In this document: piece after piece, positions 6,868-28,362 of the stretch
Position numbering within the stretch: position 1 is the stretch's first letter
Layout of the letters: the number at the start of each line of letters is the position of its first letter
Source of the DNA: Falsarthrobacter nasiphocae
GTDB taxonomy: Bacteria > Actinomycetota > Actinomycetes > Actinomycetales > Micrococcaceae
Direction: 5' to 3'
Assembly: GCF_031456275.1 (NCBI RefSeq)
Contig: NZ_JAVDUI010000001.1
Span: 310,001 to 374,000, forward strand
DNA length: 64,000 nucleotides
Notes under the pieces: model-generated
The model's database searches: none
What the model was told of the DNA's origin: nothing
What the model saw: only the letters and a program-made list of their open reading frames with translations
Made by a program: the position numbers and the translations under genes

Positions 6868-8760
6868 CTACCGCTGCGCGCGCAGGGCGCCCGCGAAGAA
6901 CCCCCTGAGCCCCTCTGTGTCCTCCAGGGAGAACACTCCGGCCACGTACTGGTCCGGGCGGACGACGACGACGGCGCCGCGGCGCGAGATCCCCCTCTCC
7001 TCGAAGATGTCCACGCCGTTCCAGGCGCTGGGCCCCGCCGCGAAGACCTTCTCCCAGTCCGTCAGGCCGAGCGGACCGGACTGCGGCCGGAACACGCCCG
7101 GCACCCGCCCCAGGTCCACCTCCGTGTACGCCTGCTGGTACACGGCCTTGACGTCGAACACGGCATCCGGGTCAGCCCCGTCCGGGGTGTGGGCGGCGAC
7201 GGGCGAGTCCTCGGACCCCATCCACGCGGCCCAGCGCTCGAGGGCGGTGTCCTCGCCGGGCAAGCCGTCGTCGGCAAACGCATAGACGCGCCACCGCCCG
7301 TCCGCGGACGCGTGGTGACCCAAATGCACCGCGTTGCCGTCCGCGACGCACGTGACGGGCGCGGACTTGAAGCGCTTGCCGAGCGGGAAGCCGGAGGCGA
7401 GGTCCTGCGCCTCCGCCCCGCCGATGATCTCCGAGGGCCCGTACTGGGTCATGAACCCGGAGGGGAACTCGGCGGTGGCGAGGTAGTGCTGGGCGAGGTC
7501 GTTGGGATCCGTGATCTCCTCGGGCTTGCGGGCCATGAGGGAGGACCACTCGCGGTCGAAGTCGATGAGCTGCTGGGCCACGGGGCGCCGCTCGGAGCCG
7601 TAGGTGCGCAGCAGGGAGGCGGGCGCGAGACCCGTCAGGACGTGGCCCAGCTTCCAGCCGAGGTTGAATCCGTCCTGCATGGACACGTTCATGCCCTGCC
7701 CGGCCTTGGCGCTGTGCGTGTGGCAGGCGTCGCCGGTGAGGAAGACGCGGGGGTTGCGCTCGGCGCCTGGGTCGACGTCGTCGAACCCGTCCGTGACGCG
7801 GTGCCCCACCTCGTAGACGCTGTGCCACGCGATTTCCTTGACGTCGATCGTGTACGGGTGGAGGATCTCGTTGGCCCGGCGGATGATCTCCTCGACGGGG
7901 GTCTGGCGGACGCGGTGGTCGTCGTCGGCCGCGACCTCGCCGAGGTCGATGTACATGCGGCTCAGGTACCCGCCCTCGCGCGGGATGTGGAGGATGTTGC
8001 CCGCCTTGGCGTTGATGGCGCACTTGGTGCGCCAGTCCGGGAAGTCCGTGTTGACGAGGACGTCCATGACGCCCCACGCGTGGGCGGCGGCGGTCCCCAC
8101 GTGCGTGCGGCCAATGGCCTTCCGCACGCCGCTGCGCGCGCCGTCGCAGCCGACGACGTAGCTGGCGCGCACGGTGAACTCCTCGCCGGCCTGCGGGCCT
8201 GCGGTGCGGCGGAGCGTGACCGTCACGGGCTCCCCCTCGGCCTCGGGGACCTCAAGGCCCACGAACTCGACTCCGTAGTCCGGGACAATCCGCCCGGGGC
8301 CCCGCACCGCGGCCTCGGCGAAGTAGTCGAGGACGCGGGCCTGGTTGACGATCAGGTGCGGGAACTCGCTGATGTTGAGCGCGTAGTCCTCCGTGCGGGA
8401 GGTGCGCACGATCCGCTCGGGGTTCTCGGGGTCCGGGCCCCAGAAGTTCATGTAGGCGATGTTGTAGGCCTCGGCGACGATCCGCTCGGCGAACCCGAAC
8501 GCCTGGAAGGTCTCGACGGAGCGGGGCTGGATGCCGTCCGCCTGGCCGAGGACGAGGCGGCCCTCGCGGCGCTCGACGATCCGCGTGCGCACGTCCGGGA
8601 ACTGGGACATCTGGGCGGCGAGGAGCATGCCGGCCGGGCCTGAGCCGACGATGAGGACGTCGAGCTCCTCGGGGATCTCGGCGGGGCGGTCGAGGCCCAC
8701 GCCGGCTGCCGCGTGAATGCGCGGATCCCCTGAAACGTACCCGTGATGATGGAACTGCAT
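6868..8760 (-). CDS. FAD-dependent aromatic hydroxylase (3-hydroxybenzoate 4-monooxygenase / phenol 2-monooxygenase type)
   Basis: 630 residues. The N-terminal Rossmann motif is [18 protein letters not shown] (about residues 34-51). The second FAD motif is [20 protein letters not shown], and the internal DG motif is [16 protein letters not shown]. The C-terminal thioredoxin-like domain ends with [13 protein letters not shown]. Length and sequence closely resemble Comamonas MobA (3-hydroxybenzoate to protocatechuate) from its MQFH start to its end. The substrate here is not provable; in a homoprotocatechuate cluster a hydroxyphenylacetate-like or hydroxybenzoate substrate is plausible. AAGGAGGGTC precedes the ATG. 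Divergent from the ThDP gene, with a palindrome between them. Confidence 0.85.
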
Positions 8761-8825: not shown

Positions 8826-8938
8826 TCCCGTCCGGCGGAAAAGACCGTCGATGCTCGAAAAATGGGCACTAACGCGCCGCGCGCGAAGACACATACGGCC
8901 ATCACTGTTCCGTCCTTCTCTGCGCGAAAGGCTCCACC

Positions 8939-10588
8939 ATGCCCTCTGTCTCCGCCCATGTCGCCGTCACCCTCGCCCAGCACGTCAGCCACGTCTTCGG
9001 CGTCATGGGCAACGGCAACGCCTACGTCCTCGACGCGCTCGAGAGGCAGACAGCGTGCGAGTTCGTCGCCGTGCGCCACGAGGCCGGCGGCGTCGTCGCG
9101 GCGGACGCGCACATGCGGGCCTCCGGCCGGATCGCGGCCGCCACGTCCACATACGGGGCGGGCTTCACGAACACCCTCACTCCCCTCGCCGAGGCGGCCC
9201 AGGCGCGCGTCCCGCTCGTCCTCGTCGTGGGAGACGAGCCGACGCCGGGGCCGCGCCCGTGGGACGTGGACCAGATCGCCCTGGCCTCCGCCGTGGGCGT
9301 GCGCACGTACACCGTCGGCGAGCGGGACGCGGCAGCCACGGTGCTCGTGGCGCTGGAGCACGCGCTCACGCACAGCCGCCCCGTGGTCATCGCCGTCCCG
9401 TACGACGTGGCGACCCGCGAGGCCGGCCCGATCCCCGAGCTCCTCTCGCCGCGCGTGCCCGCGCCCCTCTCCCCCGCCGGCCCCCTCGCGGACGCCGCGC
9501 TGGACCGCCTCGCCGGCGCGCTCGGCGGGGCCAAGCGTCCGTTCCTCCTCGCCGGCCGCGGCGCCTGGCTCTCGGGCGCGGGCGAGGACCTCGGGCGCCT
9601 CGCCTCCCGGACCGGGGCCGTGACGGGTTCGACGGCTCTTGGCCGCGGCGTCTTCCCCGAGACCCAGTACGACCTCGGCGTCGTGGGCGGCTTCGGCGCC
9701 GAGGCGGCCATGGAGCTCATTCGCGAGGCGGACGTCGCCGTCGTCTTCGGCGCCGGGCTCAACCAGTTCACGATGCGCTTCGGCCAGCTCTTCGGCCCCG
9801 GGACCGCGGTGTTCCAGGTGGACACGGCGGCTTCCGCGACCCACCCCCACGTGGGCGGGTTCGTCCGCGGGGACGCGGCCGTCGTGGCGCGCGGCCTCCT
9901 TGAACGCCTCGGCTCGGAGCCCACGGGGCGCGGCTGGCGGGAAGAGGTCGACGCCGAGGGCTTGCGCGCCCAGGCCCCAGGCGACGAGCTGGCCGCCGAC
10001 GGGCGGCTCGACCCCCGCAGCGCAGCCACCCGAATTGCGGAGCTGCTCCCCGAGGACAGGGTGGTCGTCTCTGATGGGGGCCACTTCATCGGCTGGGCCA
10101 ACATGTACTGGCCGGTGGCGAGCCCGGACCGCATGATGATGGTCGGCACCGCGTTCCAGTCGATCGGCCAGGGGTTCCCGAGCGTCGTCGGCGCGGCCGC
10201 GGCTCGCCCCGAGTCCACGGTGGTCCTCACCACGGGCGACGGCGGCGGGCTCATGGCCATCGCCGACCTCGAATCGGCCATCCGTGTGGCCGGGGGCCGC
10301 GGGATGGCGGTCGTCTGGAACGACGCGGCCTACGGGGCCGAGATCAACGTCTATGGGCGCAAGGGCCTGGCCCGGGCGCCGATGCTCATCCCGGAGGTGG
10401 ACTTCGCGGCCGCGGCGGAGGCGTTCGGCGGCCACGGCGTCGTCGTCCGCACCCTCGAGGACCTCGAGGCGCTCAAGGTGTGGGCCGCGCAGGACCCGGC
10501 CGAGCGGCCTTTCCTCCTCCTGGACCTGCGGGTCAGCGGCACTGTCGTGGCGCCGTACCAGGAGGAGATCCTCCGCGCGAACTCGTAG
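8939..10588 (+). CDS. thiamine-diphosphate-dependent enzyme (acetolactate synthase / decarboxylase-like)
   Basis: 549 residues with the three-domain ThDP fold. The N-terminal PYR domain has the proton-relay glutamate in VRHEAGG, followed by a central domain. The C-terminal PP domain has the GDGGGLMAIADLESA to WNDAAYG cofactor motif. The family includes acetolactate synthase, benzoylformate and phenylpyruvate decarboxylases; the sequence does not settle which. Position suggests a role in making or trimming an aromatic acid entering the pathway. Ends at a strong terminator shared with the convergent importer gene. Confidence 0.75.
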   Translation: MPSVSAHVAVTLAQHVSHVFGVMGNGNAYVLDALERQTACEFVAVRHEAGGVVAADAHMRASGRIAAATSTYGAGFTNTLTPLAEAAQARVPLVLVVGDEPTPGPRPWDVDQIALASAVGVRTYTVGERDAAATVLVALEHALTHSRPVVIAVPYDVATREAGPIPELLSPRVPAPLSPAGPLADAALDRLAGALGGAKRPFLLAGRGAWLSGAGEDLGRLASRTGAVTGSTALGRGVFPETQYDLGVVGGFGAEAAMELIREADVAVVFGAGLNQFTMRFGQLFGPGTAVFQVDTAASATHPHVGGFVRGDAAVVARGLLERLGSEPTGRGWREEVDAEGLRAQAPGDELAADGRLDPRSAATRIAELLPEDRVVVSDGGHFIGWANMYWPVASPDRMMMVGTAFQSIGQGFPSVVGAAAARPESTVVLTTGDGGGLMAIADLESAIRVAGGRGMAVVWNDAAYGAEINVYGRKGLARAPMLIPEVDFAAAAEAFGGHGVVVRTLEDLEALKVWAAQDPAERPFLLLDLRVSGTVVAPYQEEILRANS

Positions 10589-10593
10589 AGACT

Positions 10594-10635
10594 CGAGGAC
10601 GCCCCGCGACTCCGGAGAGTCGCGGGGCGTCCTCG
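10594..10635. terminator. bidirectional terminator, 19-bp perfect stem
   Basis: Arms 10594-10612 and 10617-10635 are perfectly complementary around a CGGA loop. It lies between the convergent ThDP and MHS-transporter genes, so it can stop transcription from both sides. Confidence 0.85.
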
Positions 10636-10671
10636 TATCGGAGCCGCCGTGGGGCGAGCCGCCGTGTGCGG

Positions 10672-12075
10672 TCAGCGGGACGAGCGCCCGCCGGCGCCGA
10701 CGATGGGGCTCACGGCCTGCTCGTCCTCGTGGTCCGGGCCGAGCGGGATGCCCTGCCGGTCCTTGAGCATGAGCGTCGCGCCGAGGCTGACGAGGGTGAT
10801 GACCGCCAGGTAGATGGCCACCGACGTCGTGGTCCCGGTCTTCTGGACGAGCGCCGCCGCGATGGTCGGGGCGAAGGCGCCGCCCACGATGGCGCCGATG
10901 GCGTAGGCAATGGACACGCCGGAGAAGCGGATCGACGCCGGGAACAGCTCGGCGTAGAACGCCGCCTGCGGGCCGTAGGTCAGGCCGAGGCCGATCGTCA
11001 GGCCCATGAGGCCCAGCATGAGGAGCCAGATGCTGCCCGTGTTGACGAGCGGGAAGAGGAACGCGATGCCGACGAGCAGCAGGAGCCAGCCGACGATGTA
11101 CGTGCGCTTGCGGCCGAACCGGTCGGCGAGGCGACCGCCCGCCCACGTGGCCAGGAGCCAGGTCACGGCGGAGGCGGCCACGGCCCAGAGGACGGGCTCG
11201 CGCTCCAGGCCCAGGGGCCCGCGGGGGTCGGTGGCGTACTTCTGGATGAATCCGCCCGTGGTCATGTAGCCGACGGCGTTGTTCGCCGCGAAGACGAGCG
11301 CCGCGAGGAGGACGAGGGGCGTGTGGCGGCGGAAGAGCTCGACGATGGGCATGCGGCTGCGCTCGCGACGCTCCGCGATCTCGGCGAAGACGGGGCTCTC
11401 CTCGACGCTGCGGCGGATGAAGTAGCCGACGACGATGAGGACGGCCGAGAGGATGAACGGCACGCGCCAGCCCCACGCGAGGAACGCCTCGCCGGGGGCG
11501 ATGCGGGCCATGATGGCCATCATGCCGGAGGCCAGGATGAGGCCGAGCGGCACGCCCATCTGCGGGGACGCGCCGAACGCGCCGCGCTTGCCGGTGGGCG
11601 CGTGCTCCACGGCCATGAGGACCGCGCCGCCCCACTCGCCGCCGGCGGAGATGCCCTGGAGGATGCGCAGGAAGATGAGGATGAGCGGGGCCGCGAAGCC
11701 GATGGTCGCGTAGGAGGGGAGGAAGCCGATGAGGGTCGTGGACGCGCCCATGAGGATGAGCGTCACCATGAGGACGTACTTGCGGCCCAGCCGGTCTCCG
11801 AGGTGGCCCGCGAGGAACGCGCCGAACGGGCGGAAGAGGAAGCTGATGCCCACGGTGAGGAACGCGAGGAGCCCAGCCCCGGCCTCGCCTGCGGGCCCGA
11901 AAAAGAGCTTGCCGAAGACCAGACCGGCCGCGGAAGCGTAGATGAAGAAGTCGTACCACTCGACTGTGGTGCCGACCACGGTGGCCATAAGAACTCGCCG
12001 CCGCTCCTGATCTGTGGACGCGCCGCCCTGGATCCTCGATCCGGAATCGGCTGTATGGGAATGTGGTGCGCTCAT
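10672..12075 (-). CDS. MFS transporter, metabolite:H+ symporter (MHS) family
   Basis: 467 residues, about 12 membrane helices. It has the MHS-type start (VVGTTVEWYDFFIYA), the loop 2-3 motif GHLGDRLGRKYVLM, and ILQGISAGGEWGGAVLM in helix 4-5, as in ShiA, KgtP and ProP relatives. It probably imports the aromatic acid or a related carboxylate degraded by the adjacent enzymes, by proton symport. Divergent from the hpaG-like gene. Weak ribosome-binding site before the ATG at 12075. Confidence 0.85.
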   Translation of the reverse strand: MSAPHSHTADSGSRIQGGASTDQERRRVLMATVVGTTVEWYDFFIYASAAGLVFGKLFFGPAGEAGAGLLAFLTVGISFLFRPFGAFLAGHLGDRLGRKYVLMVTLILMGASTTLIGFLPSYATIGFAAPLILIFLRILQGISAGGEWGGAVLMAVEHAPTGKRGAFGASPQMGVPLGLILASGMMAIMARIAPGEAFLAWGWRVPFILSAVLIVVGYFIRRSVEESPVFAEIAERRERSRMPIVELFRRHTPLVLLAALVFAANNAVGYMTTGGFIQKYATDPRGPLGLEREPVLWAVAASAVTWLLATWAGGRLADRFGRKRTYIVGWLLLLVGIAFLFPLVNTGSIWLLMLGLMGLTIGLGLTYGPQAAFYAELFPASIRFSGVSIAYAIGAIVGGAFAPTIAAALVQKTGTTTSVAIYLAVITLVSLGATLMLKDRQGIPLGPDHEDEQAVSPIVGAGGRSSR

Positions 12076-12156
12076 TTTTCTTAGGCCCCCAATGGGATAG
12101 TGACGCCTCGTGAGTGATACCTAGATCACATCCGGCTTGCCCGGTGAGACACGAGA

Positions 12157-12174
12157 ATATACGATTTCGAATAT
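12157..12174. promoter_or_regulatory. palindrome and -10 box overlapping the hpaG-like start
   Basis: The 18-bp sequence reads ATAT-n-CGA-nn-TCG-n-ATAT. Within it, TACGAT (12160-12165) fits the actinobacterial -10 consensus TANNNT, 7 bases before the ATG at 12173. No Shine-Dalgarno is visible, so the mRNA may be leaderless. The palindrome is a good operator candidate for the cluster's GntR protein. Confidence 0.5.
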
Positions 12175-13762
12175 GACGCAAGGGCAAGGAAGCACGAGCA
12201 CCCCATCCGGCACGAACTCCCCCGCCGCCGCGGGCCCCGGCGACAGCCGCGCTGCCGGGCAGGGCGCCGCTGACGCCCGCGCTGCCGGGCAGGACGCAGC
12301 TGACGCCCGCTTCTCCGGGCTGCCGGGCCGGCCGGGCAAGATCATCGCCGTCCACCTGGCGTACCCGTCCCGCGCGGACCAGCGCGGCCGCCGCCCCGCG
12401 GCGCCCTCCTACTTCCTCAAGCCGTCCAGCTCCGTCGCCGCCTCGGGCTCCGAGCTGGCCCGCCCCGCCGGGACCGAGCTCCTCGCGTTCGAGGGCGAGG
12501 TCGCGCTCGTCATCGGCGAGCCCGCCCGCCACGTCTCCCGCGAGGACGCCTGGGGCCACGTGGCCTTCGTGACGGCGTCCAACGACTTCGGCGTCTACGA
12601 CCTCCGCGCCGCAGACAAGGGCTCCAACATCCGATCCAAGGGCGGGGACGGCTTCACGCCCATCGGCCCCGGCCTCATCGACGCCTCCACGGTGGACCCC
12701 GAGGGGCTGCGCGTACGCACGTGGGTGGACGGCGAGCTGGCCCAGGACGACACGACCGAGGGCCTCCTCTTCCCGTTCCCGCAGATCGTCGCGGACCTCT
12801 CCCAGCACCTCACCCTCGAGACCGGCGACGTCATCCTCACGGGCACGCCCGCAGGCTCGTCCGTCGTCTCCCCCGGCTCCACCGTGGAGGTGGAGGTGGA
12901 CGCGCCCACCGCGCCCGGCTCCCCCACCTCCGGCCGCCTCGTCACGCGCATCACCCAGGGCGAGCAGGAGTTCGACGGAAGCCTCGGCACCCTTCCCAAG
13001 GCCGACGACCACCAGCGCGCCGAGGCCTGGGGCTCCCGCGAGGAGGCCGGGCTGCCCCCGGCCTTCGAGCTGACCGCCGAGCTCCGCGAGAAGCTCCACC
13101 GCGCCCCCGCCGCCGGCCTCTCCGCCCAGCTGCGCAAGCGCGGCCTCAACGAGGTGTCCATCGACGGCGTGCGGCCGCTGCCCGGCGCGGGCAAGATCGT
13201 CGGCACCGCCAAGACGCTGCGCTTCCTCCCCCGCCGCGAGGACCTCTTTGAGAAGCACGGCGGCGGCTTCAACGCCCAGAAGAAGGCGTTCGACTCCGTC
13301 GCCGAGGGCGAGGTCATCGTCATCGAGGCCCGCGGGGAGACCGGCTCCGGCACGCTCGGGGACATCCTCGCGCTCCGGGCCCAGGCGCGCGGTGCCGCGG
13401 GCGTCGTCACGGACGGCGGCGTGCGGGACGCGGAGGCCGTCGCGGCCACCGGGCTGCCCGTCTACACCGCGGGGCCGCACCCTGCTGTGCTCGGCCGGCG
13501 TCACGTCCCGTGGGAGTCCGACGTCGCTGTGGCCTGCGGCGGCGCCGCCGTCCTCCCGGGGGACGTGATTGTGGCGGACGGCGACGGCGTCGTCGTCATT
13601 CCCCCGCACCTCGTCGAGGAGGTCGTCGAGGCGGCCCTCGCGCAGGAGGAGCAGGACGAGTGGGTCGCGGAGCAGGTGCGCGCCGGGCACCCCGTGGACG
13701 GGCTCTTCCCGCCGAACGCCGAGTGGAAGGCCAAGTACGAGGCCTTCCGGAGCGGCCAGTGA
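12173..13762 (+). CDS. hpaG: fused FAH-family isomerase/decarboxylase and RraA-like protein (HpaG position)
   Basis: 529 residues in three parts. Residues 1-55 are Gly/Ala-rich with two tandem copies of AAGQ(G/D)AADAR. Residues 56-265 are a fumarylacetoacetate-hydrolase fold, with FEGEVALVIG, SNDFGVYDLR and DVILTGTPAG supplying the metal-binding acids and active-site loop. Residues 300-529 are an RraA-like domain with GTLGDILALRA and VVTDGGVRDAEA, the aldolase/decarboxylase-type motif. In E. coli, HpaG is a tandem of two FAH domains doing isomerisation and decarboxylation. Here the second unit looks RraA-like instead. The ATG at 12173 lacks a Shine-Dalgarno, and a leaderless start is likely. 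Confidence 0.75.
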   Translation: MTQGQGSTSTPSGTNSPAAAGPGDSRAAGQGAADARAAGQDAADARFSGLPGRPGKIIAVHLAYPSRADQRGRRPAAPSYFLKPSSSVAASGSELARPAGTELLAFEGEVALVIGEPARHVSREDAWGHVAFVTASNDFGVYDLRAADKGSNIRSKGGDGFTPIGPGLIDASTVDPEGLRVRTWVDGELAQDDTTEGLLFPFPQIVADLSQHLTLETGDVILTGTPAGSSVVSPGSTVEVEVDAPTAPGSPTSGRLVTRITQGEQEFDGSLGTLPKADDHQRAEAWGSREEAGLPPAFELTAELREKLHRAPAAGLSAQLRKRGLNEVSIDGVRPLPGAGKIVGTAKTLRFLPRREDLFEKHGGGFNAQKKAFDSVAEGEVIVIEARGETGSGTLGDILALRAQARGAAGVVTDGGVRDAEAVAATGLPVYTAGPHPAVLGRRHVPWESDVAVACGGAAVLPGDVIVADGDGVVVIPPHLVEEVVEAALAQEEQDEWVAEQVRAGHPVDGLFPPNAEWKAKYEAFRSGQ

Positions 13763-14649
13763 GCGGGCAGGGCGTGGCGCTGCGTGCGCACGGCCGGTCC
13801 GCGAGCGCTGTGGGCCGGGCGGTGGACGACGACGGCGTGGCCGCGGGGCTGAGCAAGTCGCAGCAGGCGTACGAGTGGATCAAGGAGCGGATCGCCCGCC
13901 AGGAGTTCACGCCGGGCTACCGCCTCGTCCTGGGCTCGGTGGCGGCGGAGCTCGGCATGAGCGCCGTTCCGGTCCGCGAGGCCATCCGGCGGCTGGAGGC
14001 GGAGGGGCTCGTGACGTTCGAGCGGAACGTCGGCGCCCGCGTGTCCATGGTGGACGACTCCCACTACCGGGCCAGCATGGAGGCGCTGAGCATCCTCGAG
14101 GGCAGCGCCACCGCCCTCGCCGCGCCTCGCATTGGCCCGGAGCGGATCGCGGCCGCGCGCGAGCTCAACGAGCAGATGCGCGCGGCGCTTGCCCGGTTCG
14201 AGCCCCGCGCCTTCACGGCCCTCAACCACGAGTTTCACGCCGCGCTCTTCGAGGCCTGCCCCAACGAGCGACTCCTGGCGCTGGTGCGCGCGGAGTGGGA
14301 GCGCTTGGCGCACCTGCGGGACTCGACGTTCAGCTTCGTCCCCGCCCGCGCGGCGCAGTCGGTGAGCGAGCACGAGGACATCCTCCGGCTCATCGAGGCC
14401 GGGGCGCCCGCGCACGAGATTGAGCAGGCCTGCCGCTGCCACCGCGCCGCGACCCTGACCGCCTTCCTGGCTCAGGCCCACCCTGAGCACCCCGAGCCGT
14501 CCCGCGCCGAACCAGGCCTCGCCGAGCCGGGGCGCCCGGCCCCGGCAGGGGCCGCCGCCGGACACTCCGGGCCCACCGGCCACGCCGCACAGACTTCACT
14601 CACCACCCCCGAGACCCCCGCCGAGGCCGCCCGCCTCGCGCGGCCCTGA
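13759..14649 (+). CDS. GntR-family (FCD-type) regulator of the aromatic cluster
   Basis: 296 residues. The N-terminal winged helix spans about residues 33-95, with MSAVPVREAIRRLEAEGLV as the recognition region. The helical ligand-binding domain has the histidines expected of FCD metal sites (LNHEFHAALFE, SEHEDILRLI). A Pro/Ala-rich tail of about 50 residues follows, longer than usual. The GTG start at 13759 overlaps the preceding stop (GTGA), so translation is probably coupled. Likely controls the surrounding hpa genes in response to an aromatic acid; inferred from position. Confidence 0.8.
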   Translation: MSGQGVALRAHGRSASAVGRAVDDDGVAAGLSKSQQAYEWIKERIARQEFTPGYRLVLGSVAAELGMSAVPVREAIRRLEAEGLVTFERNVGARVSMVDDSHYRASMEALSILEGSATALAAPRIGPERIAAARELNEQMRAALARFEPRAFTALNHEFHAALFEACPNERLLALVRAEWERLAHLRDSTFSFVPARAAQSVSEHEDILRLIEAGAPAHEIEQACRCHRAATLTAFLAQAHPEHPEPSRAEPGLAEPGRPAPAGAAAGHSGPTGHAAQTSLTTPETPAEAARLARP

Positions 14650-14662
14650 AGAGGAGACCCCC

Positions 14663-16180
14663 ATGACCGAGCAGACCGCCCCCGCCGGCCGCCACATCCC
14701 CGCCGACCTCCCGGACCGCATCCAGCACTACATCGACGGCGAGTTCGTCGACTCCGTGGACGGGGACACGTTCGACGTCCTCGACCCCGTGACCAACCAG
14801 ACCTACCTCAAGGCCGCCTCCGGCAAGAAGGCGGACATCGAGCGGGCCGTGGCCGCCGCCCGCCGCGCCTTCACCGAGGGGCCCTGGCCCACGATGACCG
14901 CCCGGGAGCGCGCCCGCATCCTCCACCGGATCGCGGACATCGTCGAGTCCCGGGACGCGCGCCTCGCGGAGCTGGAGAGCTTCGACTCGGGTCTGCCGAT
15001 CTCCCAGGCGCTGGGCCAGGCCCGCCGCGCCGCCGAGAACTTCCGCTTCTTCGCGGACCTCATCGTGGCCCAGACGGATGACGCCTTCAAGGTGCCCGGT
15101 CGCCAGATGAACTACGTCAACCGCAAGCCCATCGGCGTCGCAGGCCTCATCACCCCGTGGAACACGCCGTTCATGCTGGAGTCCTGGAAGCTCGCCCCAG
15201 CGCTGGCCACGGGCAACACCGTGGTCCTCAAGCCGGCCGAGTTCACGCCGCTCTCCGCGTCCCTCTGGGCCGGGGTGTTCGAGGAGGCCGGCCTGCCGCA
15301 GGGCGTCTTCAACCTCGTCAACGGGTTCGGCGAGGAGGCCGGGGACGCGCTCGTCAAGCACCCGGACGTCCCGCTCATCTCCTTCACGGGCGAGAGCCGC
15401 ACGGGCCAGATCATCTTCGGCAACGCCGCCCCGTTCCTCAAGGGCCTCTCGATGGAGCTCGGCGGCAAGTCCCCGGCCATCGTCTTCGCCGACGCTGACC
15501 TCGAGGCGGCCATCGACGCGACGATCTTCGGCGTCTTCTCCCTCAACGGCGAGCGGTGCACGGCCGGCAGCCGCATCCTCGTGGAGCGCCCCATCTATGA
15601 CGAGTTCGTCGAGCGGTACGCGGCCCAGGCCAAGCGGGTCGTCGTCGGCGATCCCCAGGACAAGGCCACCGAGGTGGGCGCGCTGGTGCACCCGGAGCAC
15701 TACGAGAAGGTCATGTCCTACATCGAGATCGGCAAGACCGAGGGCCGCCTCGTGGCCGGCGGCGGGCGCCCGGAGGGCTTCCCCGAGGGCAACTTCGTGG
15801 CCCCCACGGTGTTCGCGGATGTGCCGCGTGACGCTCGCATCTTCCAGGAGGAGATCTTCGGCCCCGTCGTCGCCATCACTCCCTTTGATTCCGACGACGA
15901 GGCGCTGGCGCTCGCGAACGACGTCAAGTACGGCCTCGCAGCCTATGTGTGGACCAACGATCTCAAGCGGTCCCACAACTTCGCGCAGGGCATCGAGGCG
16001 GGCATGGTGTGGCTGAACTCGAACAACGTGCGGGACCTGCGGACGCCGTTCGGCGGCGTCAAGGCCTCGGGCCTGGGCCACGAGGGCGGCTACCGCTCGA
16101 TCGACTTCTACACGGACCAGCAGGCCGTGCACATCACCCTGGGCCCGGCCCACAACCCCACCTTCGGCAAGGGCAAGTAG
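14663..16180 (+). CDS. hpaE: 5-carboxymethyl-2-hydroxymuconate semialdehyde dehydrogenase
   Basis: 505-residue NAD-dependent aldehyde dehydrogenase. Visible motifs are GLITPWNTPFMLESWKLAPA, the general-base ELGGKSP, and the catalytic cysteine in SLNGERCTAGSR, followed by EEIFGPVVAI. The best fit is HpaE/HpcC, which oxidises the ring-cleavage product of homoprotocatechuate, because it sits directly before the dioxygenase gene. GAAGAGGAG precedes the ATG, 13 bases after the GntR stop. Confidence 0.9.
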   Translation: MTEQTAPAGRHIPADLPDRIQHYIDGEFVDSVDGDTFDVLDPVTNQTYLKAASGKKADIERAVAAARRAFTEGPWPTMTARERARILHRIADIVESRDARLAELESFDSGLPISQALGQARRAAENFRFFADLIVAQTDDAFKVPGRQMNYVNRKPIGVAGLITPWNTPFMLESWKLAPALATGNTVVLKPAEFTPLSASLWAGVFEEAGLPQGVFNLVNGFGEEAGDALVKHPDVPLISFTGESRTGQIIFGNAAPFLKGLSMELGGKSPAIVFADADLEAAIDATIFGVFSLNGERCTAGSRILVERPIYDEFVERYAAQAKRVVVGDPQDKATEVGALVHPEHYEKVMSYIEIGKTEGRLVAGGGRPEGFPEGNFVAPTVFADVPRDARIFQEEIFGPVVAITPFDSDDEALALANDVKYGLAAYVWTNDLKRSHNFAQGIEAGMVWLNSNNVRDLRTPFGGVKASGLGHEGGYRSIDFYTDQQAVHITLGPAHNPTFGKGK

Positions 16181-16275: not shown

Positions 16276-17427
16276 ATGAGCCAAGAACCACTCCCCACCA
16301 GCCCCATCGTCACGGCCGAGGACCCCATCCGCGTGACGAACCCGCTGCCCGTCCCCTCCTCCCCCGCGCCGGACGTGCTGCGCTGCGCGTCCATGGAGCT
16401 CGTGGTCACGGACCTGGCCGCGTCCCGTGAGTTCTACGTGGACGTGCTGGGCCTTGTCGTCACCGAGGAGGACGAGGAGGCCGTCTACCTGCGGTCCATG
16501 GAGGAGTTCATCCACCACAACCTCATCCTGCGCAAGGGCCCCGTGGCCGCCGTGGCCGCGTTCTCCTACCGCGTGCGGACGCCGGAGGACCTGGACAAGG
16601 CCGTAGCGTTCTACAAGGAGCTCGGCTGCCGGGTGGAGCGCAAGAAGGACGGCTACGTCAAGGGCATCGGGGACTCGGTCCGCGTCACCGATCCGCTCGG
16701 CTTCCCGTACGAGTTCTTCCACGAGGTGGAGCACGTGGAGCGCCTCGCGTGGCGGTACGACCTCTACACGCCGGGCGCGCTCGTCCGCCTGGACCACTTC
16801 AACCAGGTCACCCCGGACGTCCCGCGCGCCGTGGGATACATGGAGTCCCTCGGGTTCCGCGTCACCGAGGACATCCAGGACGGCGAGGGCACCGTGTACG
16901 CCGCGTGGATGTGCCGCAAGCCCACCGTGCATGACACGGCCATGACGGGCGGCGATGGCCCCCGCATGCACCACGTGGCGTTCGCGACCCACGAGAAGCA
17001 CAACATCCTCGCCATCTGCGACAAGCTCGGCGCGCTCCGCCGGTCCGATGCCATCGAGCGCGGCCCCGGCCGCCACGGCGTCTCCAACGCGTTCTACCTC
17101 TACCTGCGGGACCCGGACGGCCACCGCGTGGAGATCTACACGCAGGACTACTACACCGGCGACCCCGACAACCCCGTCGTCACGTGGGACGTCCACGACA
17201 ACCAGCGCCGCGACTGGTGGGGCACCCCCGTGGTCCCGTCCTGGTACACCGAGGCGTCCCTCGTCCTGGACCTCGACGGCAACCCGCAGCCGCTCACGGC
17301 GCGGACGGACACGAGCGAGATGGCCGCGACGATCGGCGCCGACGGCTTCTCCTACACGCGGCCCGACGACGACGCGCCCATGCCCGAGTACAAGCAGGGC
17401 GAGTACAAGCTGGGTCACCAGCTCTAG
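16276..17427 (+). CDS. hpaD: homoprotocatechuate 2,3-dioxygenase (extradiol ring cleavage)
   Basis: 383 residues of the vicinal-oxygen-chelate fold, very like the Brevibacterium fuscum and Arthrobacter globiformis enzymes. With a constant offset of 19, all known key residues are present: metal ligands H174, H233 and E286 (H155, H214, E267 in B. fuscum), second-sphere H219 (H200), H267 (H248) and Y276 (Y257). It opens the ring of 3,4-dihydroxyphenylacetate next to the hydroxyls using Fe(II) or Mn(II); the metal cannot be read from sequence. AAGGAC lies upstream of the ATG. Confidence 0.95.
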   Translation: MSQEPLPTSPIVTAEDPIRVTNPLPVPSSPAPDVLRCASMELVVTDLAASREFYVDVLGLVVTEEDEEAVYLRSMEEFIHHNLILRKGPVAAVAAFSYRVRTPEDLDKAVAFYKELGCRVERKKDGYVKGIGDSVRVTDPLGFPYEFFHEVEHVERLAWRYDLYTPGALVRLDHFNQVTPDVPRAVGYMESLGFRVTEDIQDGEGTVYAAWMCRKPTVHDTAMTGGDGPRMHHVAFATHEKHNILAICDKLGALRRSDAIERGPGRHGVSNAFYLYLRDPDGHRVEIYTQDYYTGDPDNPVVTWDVHDNQRRDWWGTPVVPSWYTEASLVLDLDGNPQPLTARTDTSEMAATIGADGFSYTRPDDDAPMPEYKQGEYKLGHQL

Positions 17428-17565
17428 CGGCGGGGAGGCTGACGGCGGGTGGCGTCGTCGGCCTCTCCCCCACCATTCACCCCGCACCCGCGCACCCGAG
17501 GCGCGCGAAGAACGCCAGGCGCCCCGAGGCGCCCCACCCACCCCAGGCGCAGAGAAGGAGAGCCC

Positions 17566-18351
17566 ATGCTGCCCGAGGAGACCATCGCGGCGCTTGCCGC
17601 CGAACTCGCCGAGGCCGAGGCCACGCGCGGGATGATCCCGCGGATCACCGCGCGGCACCCCGAAGCGACCGTCGAGGACTCGTACGCCATCCAGGGCGTG
17701 TGGCGGGACAAGGCGCTCGCTGCGGGGCGGAAGCTGGTGGGCCGGAAGATCGGGCTGACGTCCCGCGCCATGCAGCAGGCCACGGGCATCACCGAGCCGG
17801 ACTACGGCGTCATGTTCGAGGACACCGTCTACCCCTCCGGCGCGCGGATCGAGGCCGGGCAGTTCTCCAACGTGCGGATCGAGGTGGAGCTCGCGTTCGT
17901 GCTCCGCAAGCCGCTCGCGGGGCCGGACTGCACGCTCGAGGACGCCCTCGACGCCGTGGACTACGCCGTGCCCGCGCTGGAGATCCTCAACTCCCACATT
18001 GAGATGGACGGGCGGACCATTGTGGACACCATCGCGGACAACGCGGCGTACGGGGGCATGGTCCTCGGGGACACGCGGAAGCGGCCTGACGAGGTGGACC
18101 TGCGCTGGGTCCCCGGCCTCCTCTACAAGAACGGGCAGATCGAGGAGACCGGCGTGGCGGCCGGCGTCCTGGACCACCCGGTGACGGGCGTGGCGTGGCT
18201 TGCTAATAAGTTCGCGGCGCACGGGGCACGCCTCGAGGCCGGGGAGGTCATCCTGGCCGGGTCCTTCACGCGGCCCATGTGGGTGGACGCGGGCGACGAC
18301 GTCCGGTGCGACTTTGGGCCGATGGGAGAGGTGGCATGCAGCTTCGTCTGA
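17566..18351 (+). CDS. hpaH: 2-oxo-hept-4-ene-1,7-dioate hydratase
   Basis: 261 residues of the hydratase/decarboxylase branch of the FAH superfamily. Recognisable stretches are [24 protein letters not shown], and the metal-binding region [12 protein letters not shown]. It adds water to the 2-oxoheptenedioate formed by the HpaG-type step. Strong site AGAAGGAG precedes the ATG at 17566. Its 3' end overlaps the aldolase gene by 16 bases. Confidence 0.9.
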
Positions 18352-19196
18352 GTCCTACGTTGCGGGATCGTCTAGCCTCGGCGGACCGTCCCCTGGCCGG
18401 CATGTGGGTGTGCTCCGGCAGTCCCCTGGTTGCGGAGATCTGCGCCGGGTCCGGGCTGGACTGGCTGCTCATTGACATGGAGCACTCCCCCAATGGTTTG
18501 GAGGCGGTGCTGGCCCAGCTGCAGGCGGTGGCGGCGTACCCGATTACCCCGGTGGTGCGCGTGCCCTTTGGGGACACCGTGACGCTCAAGCAGGTGTTGG
18601 ACCTCGGGGCGCAGACCGTGCTGGTGCCGATGGTGGAGTCTGCGGCTCAGGCGCGGGAGCTGGTGGCCGACGTGCGGTACCCGCCGCTGGGGCGGCGCGG
18701 GGTTGGGTCCGCGCTGGCCCGCTCGGCGCGGTGGAACCGGGTTGATGATTACCTTTTGGACGCCGCGGCTCACGTGAGCCTGTTTGTGCAGGTGGAGAGC
18801 GCGGCGGGCGTTGCGGCGGCAGGTGAGATTGCGGCCGTGGACGGCGTGGATGGGGTGTTTGTGGGGCCGAGTGACTTGGCGGCCTCCATGGGCCTGCTGG
18901 GCCAGCAGACGCACCCGGATGTGGTGGCGGCGGTTCGTTCGGTGTTTGCGGCCGTGCGGGCCGCGGGCAAGCCGGTGGGCGTCAACGCGTTTGACCCTGA
19001 AGTGGCTCGGGGCTACGCGGAAGACGGGGCGGCCTTCCTGCTGGTCGGGGCGGATGTTGCTCTTTTAGCGCGTGGGTCGGAGGGATTGGCGGCGAGCTGG
19101 GCGCGTGCAGCAGGGATCGAGATCCCAGGGAGGTCTCGGCAATTGACACGAGGAGACTCTAAGCCTCCACGCCAAGGAAGCCGCCCGAGCTACTAG
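18336..19196 (+). CDS. hpaI: 2,4-dihydroxyhept-2-ene-1,7-dioate aldolase (HpcH/HpaI)
   Basis: 286 residues. It is a metal-dependent class II pyruvate aldolase with [37 protein letters not shown] and [14 protein letters not shown], and cleaves the last intermediate to pyruvate and succinate semialdehyde. It overlaps hpaH by 16 bases. The last 25-30 residues (from about [18 protein letters not shown]) look unlike the usual C-terminus. The gene ends where the accessory island begins, so the tail may have been altered by the insertion. Confidence 0.88.
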
Positions 19197-20423: not shown

Positions 20424-20778
20424 AGCGCACTAGTTTCTTTCCGATCCAACTGACTGAGAATTGGAGCACGCCCAAGAAGTGCATTCCCCAATTGCGTTAT
20501 TGCGCGTTCGGGGATGGTCCTTCAGCGCCAGCCCACCCAGGGAGTACCGCGGTGACATTCGAGCGAAGGTGAGTGAGCCCCTGCGTCGAGGCCACGAAAG
20601 CCCCATTCTCGACTACAGAAAGTGCCGCGCCAAGGCTGTCACAGAATCCGTCGCTAAGTTAGCGTCGGAGGCGAACCAGGAACGGCCGAAGGCTCCCCTC
20701 GCGCCCGTACCCGGGACGCCCACCCCCATGTGGAACCTCGGGGAAGGTTCAGTGCTGTCAAGAAGAAAGGGAAGAAAC
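20424..20778. other. intergenic stretch before the AlbA_2 gene
   Basis: 355 bases. The frame of the downstream gene is open through most of it, but the translation is low-complexity and no ribosome-binding site marks an earlier start. Nothing else recognised. Confidence 0.35.
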
Positions 20779-21984
20779 ATGGTTCAGCAATACCTCGGTC
20801 CCGCCCTCGGTGTGGTGGCCTTCTCGACCTGGTCAGAGCTCGAAGATGCAGCAGAGCAAGGATTGCTGGAAGAGTCCGTTTGGTGCGAGCTCAAGGAGAT
20901 GCCCACCCCGCAAAGCTGCTCCAAGAAGGACGCAAATCTAGAGATGGCCCGCGACCTGGCCTCTCTCAGCGTGGACGGCGGCCTGCTCATCTTCGGAGTA
21001 CGCGACAACAACTTCGACGTCGTCGGATGCGATACCCAGGGGTTGACAGACCGCATATCTCAAGTAGCGGGCGGGCGCGTCTATCCCCCGTTGTCGCCCA
21101 CCATCCTGCCCCCGCTCCTCAACCCAGAGGATGAGAGCCGGTCAGTCCTGATTGTCCAGGTTCCACCCTCCCCGCTTGCACCCCATATGGTGGATGGCAG
21201 CTATTGGGGTCGAAGTAGCAATGGCAAGCGCAAGCTCAACGATACTGAGGTGCGCCGCCTACTCCTGCAACGCGATCGGGGAGAAGACTCCTTCCGACAG
21301 CGCCTCATCAGCATGGAGACCAACGACCCGCTGTCCCACTACGTTGAAGGACATCCCACCGGTAATGGGCACATCTATCTTGTCGCTGAGCCATGTGCTC
21401 CGGTAGCGCGGGCCGGCAACGAACGTCAAGGCGATGAGGTCCTCCGAAAGGTGACGCGAGCAAGCGCCTGGCAAGGTGTCGTCCCGAAGTGTGTCTACCG
21501 CTCCCCCAATCCTGCGGGGGACGCCTATGCCACGGTCGGCCCGCACGGTGAGCGTATTCCAAGCAGGGGGGAGCGGTCACTCTGTCATGTCTTGCTGCAC
21601 GAGGACAGCTCGATTGAAGTGGTCTCAGGCGGCGGAACCGCCACGTGGGAAAGCGACTCCGGACAGCCCATCAACTACCTCTGCGCCGGGCTCATCTCAA
21701 CACTGGTCATCCAGACCCTAGAACTCGTTGCCGACCGCTCACGGGCGTGGGGGTACACAGGGCAATGGCGTGTGGGCTTGCGTGTCACCAAGACACGGGG
21801 GGCTGTCTACTCCACCAAAGACATCATGAGGCGCTACCCCGCCTTTGTCGCCGACGACTACGTCCGCACCACCGTCATCCAGGGGATCAATACCGACCCT
21901 CTGGAACAGGCCGAGACCCTCCTTCGAGGACTCTACCGCGGACTCGGGATCGACTCTGATCCAATCACTGAGGTGGCTAACTAA
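20779..21984 (+). CDS. AlbA_2 / Schlafen-type putative DNA-binding protein
   Basis: 401 residues. The N-terminal 180 residues show the AlbA_2 (Schlafen) pattern: EESVWCELKEM, the helix NLEMARDLASLSVDGGLLIFGV, and HMVDGSYWGRSSNGKRKLND. The C-terminal half is unassigned. Such proteins are common in islands and have been linked to transcription control or defence. ATG at 20779 follows AAAGGGAAG. It ends 86 bases before the convergent stop of the broken methylase gene, with a hairpin between. Confidence 0.7.
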   Translation: MVQQYLGPALGVVAFSTWSELEDAAEQGLLEESVWCELKEMPTPQSCSKKDANLEMARDLASLSVDGGLLIFGVRDNNFDVVGCDTQGLTDRISQVAGGRVYPPLSPTILPPLLNPEDESRSVLIVQVPPSPLAPHMVDGSYWGRSSNGKRKLNDTEVRRLLLQRDRGEDSFRQRLISMETNDPLSHYVEGHPTGNGHIYLVAEPCAPVARAGNERQGDEVLRKVTRASAWQGVVPKCVYRSPNPAGDAYATVGPHGERIPSRGERSLCHVLLHEDSSIEVVSGGGTATWESDSGQPINYLCAGLISTLVIQTLELVADRSRAWGYTGQWRVGLRVTKTRGAVYSTKDIMRRYPAFVADDYVRTTVIQGINTDPLEQAETLLRGLYRGLGIDSDPITEVAN

Positions 21985-22518: not shown

Positions 22519-23960
22519 GGCTCTTCACAGATGAGGGTGTAGTGCTGTTCTGAACCCGCCGACGTCCAGCAGGGATCGAGCGATGTAGTGGGCCAGGTTC
22601 CGGAATCCCAGTGCCGTGCCCCGTAAGTGCTCCAGACGGCCGTTGATCGCCTCAGTCGGCCCGTTGCTCGAGCCTGGATGATCGAAGAACGCCAACACAT
22701 CTGCAGCCCTGCGCTTCAAGGTCCGACCTAGCGTGATCAGCTCCGTCAGCGCCTCTGGCACCCCGCGGGCCAGCGAAGCGATAACTGCCTGCATCCGCCG
22801 CCGTCCAGCTACGCGGTCAGGGTCGCGGTAGGCAGCCACGATCCGCTGATACACGCTCCACGTCACCTCGACCTCCACGTGGGCCTCGCACGCGAAGACG
22901 GCCGCCAACCTGGCTGCCTGACGGCTGGTCAGCAGCCCGGCCCCGGTATGCAGCACCCGCCGGATCCCGTACAGCGGGTCTGCTGAACGACCCCGGCGCC
23001 CGAGCGTGGCCTGCTGCACTCGCTGGCGGCACTGATCGATCTTCTCCCCGGCCAGGGCCACGACATGGAACGGGTCCATCACCGCTCTGGCAGCCGGGAT
23101 CTCTTCGGTAGCGGCGCTCTTGTAGCCGGTGAAGCCGTCCATCGCCACGATCTCGATCCCGTTCCTGAACTCGGGCGTGCGCTCAGCGAGCCAGGTCTTG
23201 AAGACCTGCTTTGAACGCCCCGGCACCATGTCCAACAGGCGCGAGGTCCCAGTACCGGCGCGGATCGGGGTGAGATCGATGATGACGGTGACGTACTTCG
23301 ACCCGGTGCCGGTATGGGACCAGACGTGCTCATCGACGCCGATGACCTGTACGCCGTCCAGGCGTCCGGGAGCATTGATGAGCAGGCGACGCCCAGTGTC
23401 CAGCACGGCGTCGTTGGCCGTGTTCCAGGCGACCCCGAGGCCTGCGGCGACCCGGGTGATCGAGAGGCGGTCGATGACCACGGCACGCAGTGCCCATAGG
23501 GCGGCGTGGCGAGAGAGTTTCGTCCTGGGCCAGGCCGCGGCCATGGTGTTCTGTCTCCACACGCTCTGGCAGTCCGGGCACCGGTAGCGGCGGATCCGCA
23601 GCTTCAGCTGCGTGGGCCGGTGCCCGAAGGGAACGTGGGCGAGGTGGCGGGTGACGGTGCCACGGGCGATGCCTTGCTGGCCGCACTGGCGACACCACCG
23701 ATCAGTATCGTCTGTGGGGCGGATCCGGCATTCCAGGACGGCCTTGTCGGGAGCGATGTGCTGGCCGGTGACTGTGAGTCCGAGGTCGTTCAGTCGGCAG
23801 AACGCGTCGAGATCGGGGGCCGTGAGGGTAGCCTGGGGCATGTCGAGGTCTTCCAGATGGGCAGTGTGAGAACTTCCATCATCGGGAGGCCTCGACCTCT
23901 ATGCGGGCACCGACACGCCGACCACCGCCCTGGGGGCTACACCCTCAATTGTGAAGAGCC
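22519..23960 (-). mobile_element. ISL3-family insertion sequence, copy A (1442 bp)
   Basis: Ends are inverted repeats beginning GGCTCTTCACA, with GAGGGTGTAG further in. Flanks are CATACACC (22511-22518) and CATATACC (23961-23968), an 8-bp target duplication with one mismatch. The length equals that of copies B and C, and no internal difference was seen; copy A has the opposite orientation. Inserted inside the methylase-type gene. Confidence 0.95.
22525..23841 (-). CDS. ISL3-family transposase (copy A)
   Basis: 438 residues. An N-terminal zinc-ribbon (CRQCGQQG, CPDCQSVW) and HTH precede a DDE catalytic core with VIGVDEHVWSH and VAMDGFTGYK. The C-terminal acid lies near GPTEAINGRLEHLRGTALGF. 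Same protein as the other two copies; appears intact. Confidence 0.95.
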   Translation of the reverse strand: MPQATLTAPDLDAFCRLNDLGLTVTGQHIAPDKAVLECRIRPTDDTDRWCRQCGQQGIARGTVTRHLAHVPFGHRPTQLKLRIRRYRCPDCQSVWRQNTMAAAWPRTKLSRHAALWALRAVVIDRLSITRVAAGLGVAWNTANDAVLDTGRRLLINAPGRLDGVQVIGVDEHVWSHTGTGSKYVTVIIDLTPIRAGTGTSRLLDMVPGRSKQVFKTWLAERTPEFRNGIEIVAMDGFTGYKSAATEEIPAARAVMDPFHVVALAGEKIDQCRQRVQQATLGRRGRSADPLYGIRRVLHTGAGLLTSRQAARLAAVFACEAHVEVEVTWSVYQRIVAAYRDPDRVAGRRRMQAVIASLARGVPEALTELITLGRTLKRRAADVLAFFDHPGSSNGPTEAINGRLEHLRGTALGFRNLAHYIARSLLDVGGFRTALHPHL

Positions 23961-24300
23961 CATATACCCCGAATGGCCCACCCATTCGTTCCGCTTAATG
24001 TTTATTTCTTTAAATTTTTGAACAACTTCACTCGAGATCAGCCGGGTGACCCCGATTCGGTTAAGGCTGGCGAAGGAACGACGGACGCGCGCCTCGTCAT
24101 CAGCATCGCCGCCGAGTGCATCGCGAAAGTGCTTCAAAATTTTCTCTATGATGACAATCCAAGTCGCAAATGTCGGCCTCACAATGCTCATTCCATTGGC
24201 GTCAAGCGTCTGACGTATCTTATCCTCCGTCTCATTCGCTTCCCCCGAATACGCCCGATTTGCAGACAGCAACACGATGGCGTGAAACGCCACCATTGCC

Positions 24301-25742: not shown

Positions 25743-26808
25743 CCATTGCCTCGCATGCATGGAGGTACGCTCTTTGCCGCTCGCCCGCAGAACTCGCCGA
25801 CTCCGCCGCCCAGAGGGCCGATGCAATCGGGTACGGCAACTGATCGAGCCAAGCGGACAGCGAGCCGTCGAAGACGCCCGCCACTTGCCCCACAACCTCG
25901 TCAGCTGCCTCGGGGGACGACCAGATGCTCTCTAGACGAGAGGAGAGATCAGCCTGGAATGAGACCAGCCGCTCGGCTGCCGAAGCCACGGCGTGCTGCA
26001 CATGAAGTTCCGGTATAGGCACGATGAGTTCGTCAGCCCACTGCATCAAAGACTTGCTGTTCGTTCTGATACGGGGAGATTTCGGCCCCTGCTGCCTTCG
26101 ATGTTTGCACGTTGGCGGCTGGCAGTGCCCAACTCCGAGCACAACCACTGCGCCATGAACGGCAGATGTACAGCCTCGTCAGCGAACTCGACCGCAGCAA
26201 CCCGAGCCTCAGCGGGCGCTTCAGACCCCCCCAGTGAATGCCCTGGTTCGCGGGTCGCTTGGAATGAACAATTGATTGATGGGTTGAGCGATCTGTGAAT
26301 CGGGTGTCATCTTTGGCTCACAGGCCAGAAGGCGACTTAGGCGAGTGATATGCCAGCCAGAATCTGTCAAATTGTCTGATATCTCACGAGAGTCATCCTC
26401 GAATATCCGGGTAGGATCCAGATCGACAGTCAACTTTGGCTTGCCATCGAGTGAAACGCCTGAAATCTCGCCATATCGATTACTCAGAAACTGGTCGTCA
26501 ATCGACGTATCATTATACGTCGTGACGCGCCACGAAATTTGATCGCCATCGGTCGCTTCCCTCGACAAGAACGCTTCTCTTCGCGTGAACCGTTTCGTAC
26601 TAATAGTTCGATCTCGTGGGCCCGCCTTCCTTATTCTCAACCCCGATTCCAATTCGTGCAAGGTGTCGAGGGGTAGCAAACGACAACCGCGCTTGGAGAT
26701 GAACGAACTCTGTAAGTCGAATATCATCGCTTTTCCACGCTTGATGTCTTGTATCCTATTCGAAAAAGTCAATAGGAAAGGCGAAAACGATATCTGCCCT
26801 ACAAGCCC

Positions 26809-26882: not shown

Positions 26883-26889
26883 CGCCCCC

Positions 26890-28252: not shown

Positions 28253-28362
28253 CGAAAACCATAGAAGCACCCCCCTGGAGACCTGCTACCCCTCCCCGAA
28301 CGTACCCCCTCCCGACGGCAGTCAGTTCGACCTTGCCAGCCACCGAGCGCTAGAGTGGGTCA

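Follow-up and report, generated by a model that had tools for sequence, protein, structure and literature searches.

Which enzyme catalyses the decarboxylation and isomerisation steps of the homoprotocatechuate pathway in Falsarthrobacter nasiphocae? The question is raised by a stretch of 64,000 nucleotides of its genome (NZ_JAVDUI010000001.1, positions 310,001 to 374,000; hereafter the window), in which the position of the classical two-part HpaG is taken by a gene encoding a fumarylacetoacetate hydrolase (FAH) domain fused to an RraA-like domain. Sequence comparisons suggest that, in homoprotocatechuate-degrading actinobacteria, HpaG seems to have been replaced by this FAH–RraA fusion. In the reading that we prefer, to which we give a probability of roughly 70%, the fusion takes the place of HpaG, and probably also that of HpaF, with the RraA half acting as decarboxylase of 5-oxopent-3-ene-1,2,5-tricarboxylate (OPET) and the FAH half as tautomerase.

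Domain architecture and setting of the fusion

The fusion is encoded by one open frame (12137..13762, + strand). The initial annotation had it begin at the ATG at 12173 (529 amino acids); this frame is confirmed, although a longer one of 541 amino acids opens at a TTG at 12137. At E <= 0.001 Pfam recognizes exactly two families in the protein, PF01557 followed by PF03737, which bears out the earlier description of an FAH domain joined to an RraA-like one. The FAH domain spans residues 68–258 (12338..12910, +; PF01557 FAA_hydrolase, E 9.6e-47, 159.8 bits against a cut-off of 23.9), and the RraA-like domain residues 332–487 (13130..13597, +; PF03737, E 2.9e-32, 112.4 bits against 24.5), the latter falling in the subfamily NF006093/PRK08245 (242.5 bits, cut-off 208). 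The motifs by which the second half had been recognized, GTLGDILALRA and VTDGGVRD, lie at residues 405–415 and 424–431, and the profile search assigned this half to RraA and not to FAH, so the idea that both halves might be FAH domains fails. The structural matches of an AlphaFold2 model (mean predicted local distance difference test score 84.3; predicted template-modelling score, pTM, 0.58) include RraAS2 of Streptomyces (5x15, Z 28.0), the C-terminal half of HpcE (1i7o, Z 24.8 over 198 residues, to residues 217–429) and 4-hydroxy-4-methyl-2-oxoglutarate/4-carboxy-4-hydroxy-2-oxoadipate (HMG/CHA) aldolase (3noj, Z 21.9). The mutual placing of the two halves in the model is unreliable because of the pTM of 0.58.

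The architecture is less new than the initial annotation implied, because it is already an NCBI family, NF009399/PRK12764, which matches the protein at full length (816.4 bits, cut-off 444; profile positions 14–496 of 501, residues 59–540). Since this family matches the whole protein, the joining of the two domains is conserved and does not stem from a chance frame; a frame artefact was rejected on these grounds and on a mean column identity of 66% over 23 sequences, that of the window included. The family carries a generic name, with no reaction assigned in the tools used, and two plasmid-borne relatives are publicly annotated as ‘fumarylacetoacetate hydrolase family protein’ and ‘putative Dimethylmenaquinone methyltransferase’. 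All models of HpaG score the fusion under their cut-offs, i.e., 137.4 of 276.4 bits for the C-terminal model TIGR02303, 95.5 of 228.65 bits for the N-terminal model TIGR02305 and 121 of 811 bits for PRK15203, and the two FAH halves of HpaG are not present, since the second half of the fusion matches PF03737 alone.

The fusion is the first gene of a set on the same strand that runs in the order fusion, GntR, hpaE, hpaD, hpaH and hpaI, which places it in the HpaG position. The GntR/FCD regulator (13810..14649, +; PF00392 and PF07729; start codon uncertain) is followed by HpaE, the 5-carboxymethyl-2-hydroxymuconate semialdehyde dehydrogenase (14663..16180, +; TIGR02299, 663 bits, over the cut-off of 638), and by the homoprotocatechuate 2,3-dioxygenase HpaD (16276..17427, +; TIGR02295, 433 bits, over its cut-off), which matches homoprotocatechuate 2,3-dioxygenases in the PDB with E 4e-190 to 7e-178, presumably the enzymes of Brevibacterium fuscum and Arthrobacter globiformis. 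Next come an HpaH-like 2-oxohept-3-ene-1,7-dioate (OHED) hydratase (17449..18351, +), whose best family, TIGR02312, scores 342 bits, just under the cut-off of 351.5, and an HpaI-like aldolase (18279..19196, +; PF03328), whose best family, TIGR02311, reaches 304.5 bits, under the cut-off of 368.8; its start codon is uncertain and its frame overlaps hpaH.

Search for other candidates in the genome

The cluster lacks a separate isomerase or decarboxylase gene, as had been noted from the window, and this extends to the genome as far as it was searched (2.195 Mb, one contig). Besides the fusion, no further RraA gene was found, and the search with PF01557 returned one other FAH gene, located between ilvE and gltX at 1.993 Mb. 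The cluster's own weak HpaH match (44 bits in the Pfam scan) was passed over by that search, so that other weak FAH relatives could have been missed too. Apart from the ilvE–gltX gene, the fusion is thus the sole candidate found for the step from OPET through 2-hydroxyhepta-2,4-diene-1,7-dioate (HHDD), and it is encoded together with hpaE, hpaD, hpaH and hpaI.

These searches bear on the possibility that the fusion belongs to another pathway and stands in the hpa cluster by chance, with a canonical HpaG encoded elsewhere, which we regard as very improbable. The ilvE–gltX FAH does score 175 bits with TIGR02303 (vs. 100 bits with the N-terminal model of HpaG), but this is under the cut-off, and its lid is of the ordinary HxxE type discussed below. 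A hidden HpaG was accordingly rejected as a candidate, with only this gene having turned up and no gene of the genome exceeding the cut-off of the C-terminal model. Of the 297 genomes sampled from the order of F. nasiphocae none exceeds it either; five have matches of 214–224 of 276 bits, and the model scored over its cut-off in 2 of 14 control genomes. Also against a chance placement is the finding that HpaD and the fusion occur in identical genomes of the class, as set out in the next section.

HpaF (PF02962) has no match in the genome of F. nasiphocae, nor in 23 of 24 genomes, this one included, picked from the 80 genomes of the order that carry the fusion, with tautomerase families other than PF02962 (e.g., PF01361-type) not searched; another tautomerase for 5-carboxymethyl-2-hydroxymuconate (CHM) may therefore be encoded. 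Three genomes of the genus g254, which has a separate RraA gene (see below), were also without a match to PF02962. The positive control (G682), reached via an Achromobacter locus with paired FAH genes (L046), scored 127 bits.

Distribution of the fusion and HpaD

In the genome surveys only those candidates that came out best in a preliminary scan were scored, so that a few family members may be missed. In the sample of the class (316 genomes), HpaD was over its cut-off in 21 genomes and the fusion in 21, and these are the identical 21 genomes; 16 of them belong to the same order as F. nasiphocae and are also in the order sample. In the sample of the phylum the fusion was over its cut-off in 8 of 396 genomes. 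In the order sample it was so in 80 genomes and HpaD in 85, with both in 78, and in 77 of these 78 the two genes lie on one contig at a median distance of 3.6 kb (maximum 4.8 kb). In the remaining genome, G650, the contig with the fusion breaks off within HpaE, and part of an HpaD lies on a different contig. The two genomes with a fusion and no HpaD are G556, whose contig stops after the fusion, and G618, which has a truncated HpaE and yielded no HpaD.

Seven genomes of the order have HpaD without an intact fusion, i.e., six of the genus g254 and G679. The latter has an otherwise complete hpa cluster, in which the FAH and RraA parts lie in different frames (L072, 11678–13164); this is a true split, a mutation or an assembly error. 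In the six g254 genomes a stand-alone RraA, 65–70% identical to the RraA half of the fusion, adjoins HpaD and HpaI, with HpaH present in five of the six (L069 6197–9536, L070 9182–11754, L071 6782–10084, L078 6420–9680, L079 6632–9993, L080 9400–12732). Since the same RraA subfamily thus occurs near HpaD in all seven (six stand-alone, one frame-split), all 85 genomes with HpaD hold this RraA, and six of them do so without the FAH half.

We examined 19 further loci with the fusion (L034–L045 and L051–L057). Each of the 19 has HpaE, HpaD or both near the fusion, and 14 have the full set of HpaE, HpaD, HpaH and HpaI. Of the incomplete loci, L038 ends after HpaE, L040 has no HpaH or HpaI that could be found, and L057 has HpaE and GntR and no HpaD, HpaH or HpaI on a 13-kb contig. 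Locus L036, from Cellulomonas sp. IC4_254 (8830–13794), combines a second-type HpaD with the fusion, GntR, HpaH and HpaI, and has no HpaE. L045, apparently a decaying hpa cluster of the Brachybacterium type, has only a truncated HpaE (195 of about 500 residues), and HpaD could not be found in it. It is identical to L075, and both lie on contigs of equal length (52,202 bases), so that they probably come from one genome; the pair is counted once where numbers of different rows are given.

Active sites and probable roles of the two halves

The RraA half appears, by alignment, to keep the catalytic residues of the aldolase/oxaloacetate decarboxylase. Its signature G408-D409-x20-R430-D431 (13358..13429, +), an instance of the (D/E)-x20-R-D metal and catalytic motif of RraA, aligns to Gly101, Asp102, Arg123 and Asp124 of 3noj. 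All 26 fusion rows (25 different) keep the four residues, as do all seven stand-alone RraA proteins encoded beside or one gene from HpaD; of the two remaining stand-alone rows, L061 has a His at the position of residue 409, and L060 keeps the signature and differs at other conserved positions. In HMG/CHA aldolase, Arg123 is reported to be essential and to stabilise the enolate, Asp124 to bind the metal, and the decarboxylation of oxaloacetate to need no general base (PMC5065237). Decarboxylation is, in our view, probably the task of the RraA half.

The FAH half retains its metal site but not the usual dyad of the lid. The metal-ligand motif E119-x-E121 (12491..12499, +), together with D150 and the lysine K168, occurs in every one of the 23 fusion rows (22 different). 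In the lid (residues 73–85, H73..Y76..R79..Q82..R85; 12353..12391, +) the position of the HxxE dyad is occupied by R79xxQ82, with H73, R79 and R85 in 23 of 23 of these rows and Q82 in 22, the exception being an E in L057. The His-Glu dyad, His30-Glu33 in FAHD1, is thus not found in the FAH half of the fusion; it is present in the C-terminal half of HpcE, in the HpcE of Thermus and in the other FAH of the genome. This equivalence of the lids rests on HpcE-C and the other FAH proteins, with FAHD1 itself lying outside the alignment. In FAHD1 the lid dyad is described as catalytically competent and Lys123 is proposed to support enol ketonisation (PMC8398924). Arguing from homology, a kept metal site with a lost dyad is what would be expected of an FAH domain retained for tautomerisation. 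One might suppose that genomes with a stand-alone RraA keep an FAH with the special lid elsewhere; this idea was tested, and the nine loci that could be read (L083–L090 and L092) all have the ordinary HxxE. The check covered part of those FAH genes, with L091 and L093 (no lid read), G530 C13/C12 and G558 C31/C25 left out.

In a tree of FAH domains the 23 fusion halves form one clade (100/99), sister to 18 stand-alone FAH proteins with the special lid, and the two together group with the HpaG1 (isomerase-type) row (97/86), the HpaG1 branch being very long; HpaG2 and the C-terminal half of HpcE fall outside this group. L028, L031, L032 and L033 (no readable frame) and the N-terminal half of HpcE were left out of the tree, and L072 was left out of the alignment (A1) because its two parts lie in different frames.

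The roles might instead be swapped, with the FAH half as the OPET decarboxylase, like the C-terminal half of HpaG/HpcE, and the RraA half as HHDD tautomerase or accessory domain. We consider this unlikely. The FAH half is indeed nearest to the C-terminal, ‘decarboxylase’ model of HpaG (137.4 vs. 95.5 bits for the N-terminal model) and to the C-terminal half of HpcE (118.9 vs. 57.2 bits for its N-terminal half; Z 24.8), and it keeps E119, E121, D150 and K168 throughout. Its lid HxxE, however, is replaced, the RraA signature is fully kept, and the six clusters with a stand-alone RraA would then be without a decarboxylase, although these clusters are also without HpaE. The likeness to the decarboxylase half of HpaG weighs less because it was from structure alone that the isomerase and decarboxylase roles were given to its two FAH halves (PMC12718150), and because the ilvE–gltX FAH leans the same way (175 vs. 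100 bits).

That the FAH half performs both decarboxylation and isomerisation, and the RraA half works on another step, e.g., as pyruvate aldolase or oxaloacetate decarboxylase, is still harder to defend. Some FAH enzymes, such as FAHD1, are reported to be both tautomerase and decarboxylase (PMC12176266), and the RraA-fold HMG/CHA aldolase does cleave aldols (PMC5065237). But the cluster already has an HpaI-like aldolase, accompanied by HpaE, HpaD and HpaH in 14 of the 19 loci, the lid dyad of the FAH half is lost, and this RraA subfamily stays near HpaD in six genomes without an FAH half.

The assignment of decarboxylation to the RraA half, and of tautomerisation to the FAH half, has several points against it. 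RraA-fold proteins also catalyse aldol cleavage and have other jobs, and the fusion does not reach the cut-off of the LigK/HMG-CHA aldolase equivalog TIGR02798 (82.6 of 304.5 bits). The FAH half is closer to the C-terminal than to the N-terminal HpaG model, as said, and it keeps metal ligands that the N-terminal half of HpcE lacks. The ilvE–gltX FAH could in principle help with the step. Of the 24 genomes searched for HpaF, one (G506) matches PF02962 twice above the cut-off (49.8 and 34.3 vs. 26.5 bits). The six g254 genomes may run a different pathway, because they have no HpaE in the cluster and a distant HpaD, and L073 (G268) has a second, more distant copy of HpaD without an RraA beside it.

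The suggestion of the initial annotation, an RraA-type decarboxylase fused to an FAH isomerase, is supported by the domains, gene context, co-occurrence, the failure to find HpaG, HpaF or other alternatives, and the conservation of residues; from these we infer the reactions and which half performs which.

Proposed mechanism

HpaD and HpaE would convert homoprotocatechuate to CHM, which isomerises to OPET spontaneously, as has been reported (PMC12718150), or with the help of the FAH half. In the RraA half a divalent metal held by D431 would chelate the 2-oxo acid end of OPET, and R430 would stabilise the extended (di)enolate, with loss of CO2 and release of the dienol HHDD. This would be a vinylogous version of the oxaloacetate decarboxylation by RraA-fold aldolases. 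The FAH half would then tautomerise HHDD, a 2-hydroxy-2,4-diene, to OHED, its 2-oxo-3-ene form, and the pathway would be completed by HpaH and HpaI; the fusion would thereby hold two successive steps together.

Since HpaF was not found, the FAH half perhaps also converts CHM to OPET. That it performs both tautomerisations is a tentative extension, to which we give less than even odds. A broader scenario is comparably speculative. It would comprise an Actinomycetes-wide displacement of the FAH-type OPET decarboxylase by an RraA-type one and an FAH half with a rebuilt lid (His73, Arg79, Arg85) that tautomerises CHM to OPET as well as HHDD to OHED. One fusion would thereby equal HpaF plus both halves of HpaG, and its RraA module would later have become separated on at least one occasion, to be reused with the second-type HpaD.

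Stand-alone relatives

In a tree of RraA domains the stand-alone genes of g254 fall inside the fusion clade and, because of this position, look like pieces split off fusions; the starred branches force at least three changes between the fused and stand-alone states over the nine stand-alone rows. The g254 loci (18–19.5 kb) contain no other FAH and no HpaE by tblastn at E 1e-5. HpaE-type scores in the six genomes are 410–484 bits, under the cut-off of 638, the HpaD is of the second type (39–41% identity), and each genome has other FAH genes elsewhere. The substrate of the g254 cluster is perhaps one whose ring cleavage yields the tri-acid directly.

Another arrangement occurs in a different family of the same phylum (L058, 5165–7891), where a more distant stand-alone RraA, a DapA-type gene and an HpaD over its cut-off stand in one row. 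The best model of the DapA-type gene by E-value is TIGR02313 (2,4-dihydroxyhept-2-ene-1,7-dioate aldolase, HpaI-like), where it stays under the cut-off, while it is over that of dapA; the row is perhaps a different solution for the same pathway.

The special lid is not unique to the fusions, as stand-alone FAH proteins of other classes share it (18 rows). Near stand-alone FAH proteins with this lid (H..Y.SR..E) at L062, L065 and L067 there is an aldehyde dehydrogenase, along with genes that, judged from sequence beginnings and weak matches only, look glutamine-synthetase-like, P450, extradiol-type or acetoacetate-decarboxylase-like, not every locus having all of them.

Neighbouring genes in the window

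Upstream of the fusion lies a divergent transporter gene of the major facilitator superfamily (10672..12075, −; Pfam). A flavin-dependent phenol-type monooxygenase, a candidate 4-hydroxyphenylacetate hydroxylase, its substrate being inferred, is encoded at 6868..8760 (−; NF006144, 956 bits), and both genes also occur near the fusion in several relatives. Between them a thiamine-diphosphate enzyme (8939–10588, +), under all NCBIfam cut-offs shown, is a candidate decarboxylase of the 4-hydroxyphenylpyruvate type, which would feed the pathway.

Downstream of the hpa cluster is a gene for a protein with a Schlafen AlbA_2 domain and no NCBIfam match (20461–21984, +). The region that follows (22525–29313) is mobile or variable; two ISL3-type transposases in opposite orientation (22525–23841, −, and 24420–25736, +) are followed by an IS110-type transposase (26987–28252, +) and a C5 cytosine methylase (28363–29313, +).

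Comparison with known systems

If our interpretation is correct, an enzyme can be assigned to the decarboxylation and isomerisation steps of the actinobacterial tyrosine/4-hydroxyphenylacetate pathway, whose ring-cleavage enzymes, the homoprotocatechuate 2,3-dioxygenases, have many solved structures, and a vaguely named family could be renamed. RraA would gain a new reaction, the decarboxylation of a vinylogous 2-oxo acid. With the two activities on unrelated folds, each half could be assayed or inactivated separately, which would make the fusion a natural test of the assignment of the HpaG halves. The value of the finding lies in a concrete and cheap test of non-homologous enzyme replacement.

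In the open-licence literature, with subscription papers and supplements lying outside the search, we found no paper linking RraA (or dimethylmenaquinone methyltransferase) to the homoprotocatechuate pathway. For Arthrobacter sp. Rue61a, which can use 4-hydroxyphenylacetate, homoprotocatechuate and tyrosine for growth, a meta pathway has been proposed, and its closest sequenced relative is A. aurescens TC1 (PMC3534580); the main text of that paper does not mention RraA, menaquinone methyltransferase or fumarylacetoacetate. In A. aurescens TC1 the fusion cluster lies on pTC2. The passages that describe the pathway in Rhodococcus ruber (PMC6498646) and Arthrobacter arilaitensis (PMC2991359) name no RraA. 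A study of Acinetobacter baumannii that assigns all middle steps has two separate proteins, encoded by hpaG1 and hpaG2 (PMC12718150), and RraA is not mentioned in its main text.

HpaG/HpcE, the bifunctional OPET decarboxylase/HHDD isomerase of E. coli, encoded by hpaG1 and hpaG2 in Acinetobacter, Burkholderia and Pseudomonas, has the same pathway and the same cluster slot as the fusion, and the FAH half of the fusion is 40% identical to the C-terminal half of HpcE in structural alignment. It differs in consisting of two FAH halves, whereas the second half of the fusion is an RraA, both half-models of HpaG staying far under their cut-offs and HpaF not being found. The HMG/CHA aldolase–oxaloacetate decarboxylase (LigK/GalC, 3noj) shares the RraA fold and the G-D-x20-R-D signature with this second half, and it relies on a metal and Arg123 to decarboxylate a 2-oxo acid (PMC5065237). 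Its similarity to the fusion is, however, low (see the TIGR02798 score above), its pathway is different and LigK is not fused to an FAH domain. The fusion's own family, NF009399/PRK12764, has the same two-domain architecture over the full length. In Corynebacterium aurimucosum, for which the paper describes a cluster hpaGLEDHI, with HpaG called OPET decarboxylase and hpaF elsewhere on the chromosome (PMC2830990), RraA, menaquinone methyltransferase and fumarylacetoacetate are not mentioned in the main text. The order of these genes (hpaG, the regulator hpaL, hpaE, D, H and I) is the same as in the cluster of the window and, judging from this order and from two other Corynebacterium species (L041 and L042), the hpaG of C. 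aurimucosum is probably the fusion as well.

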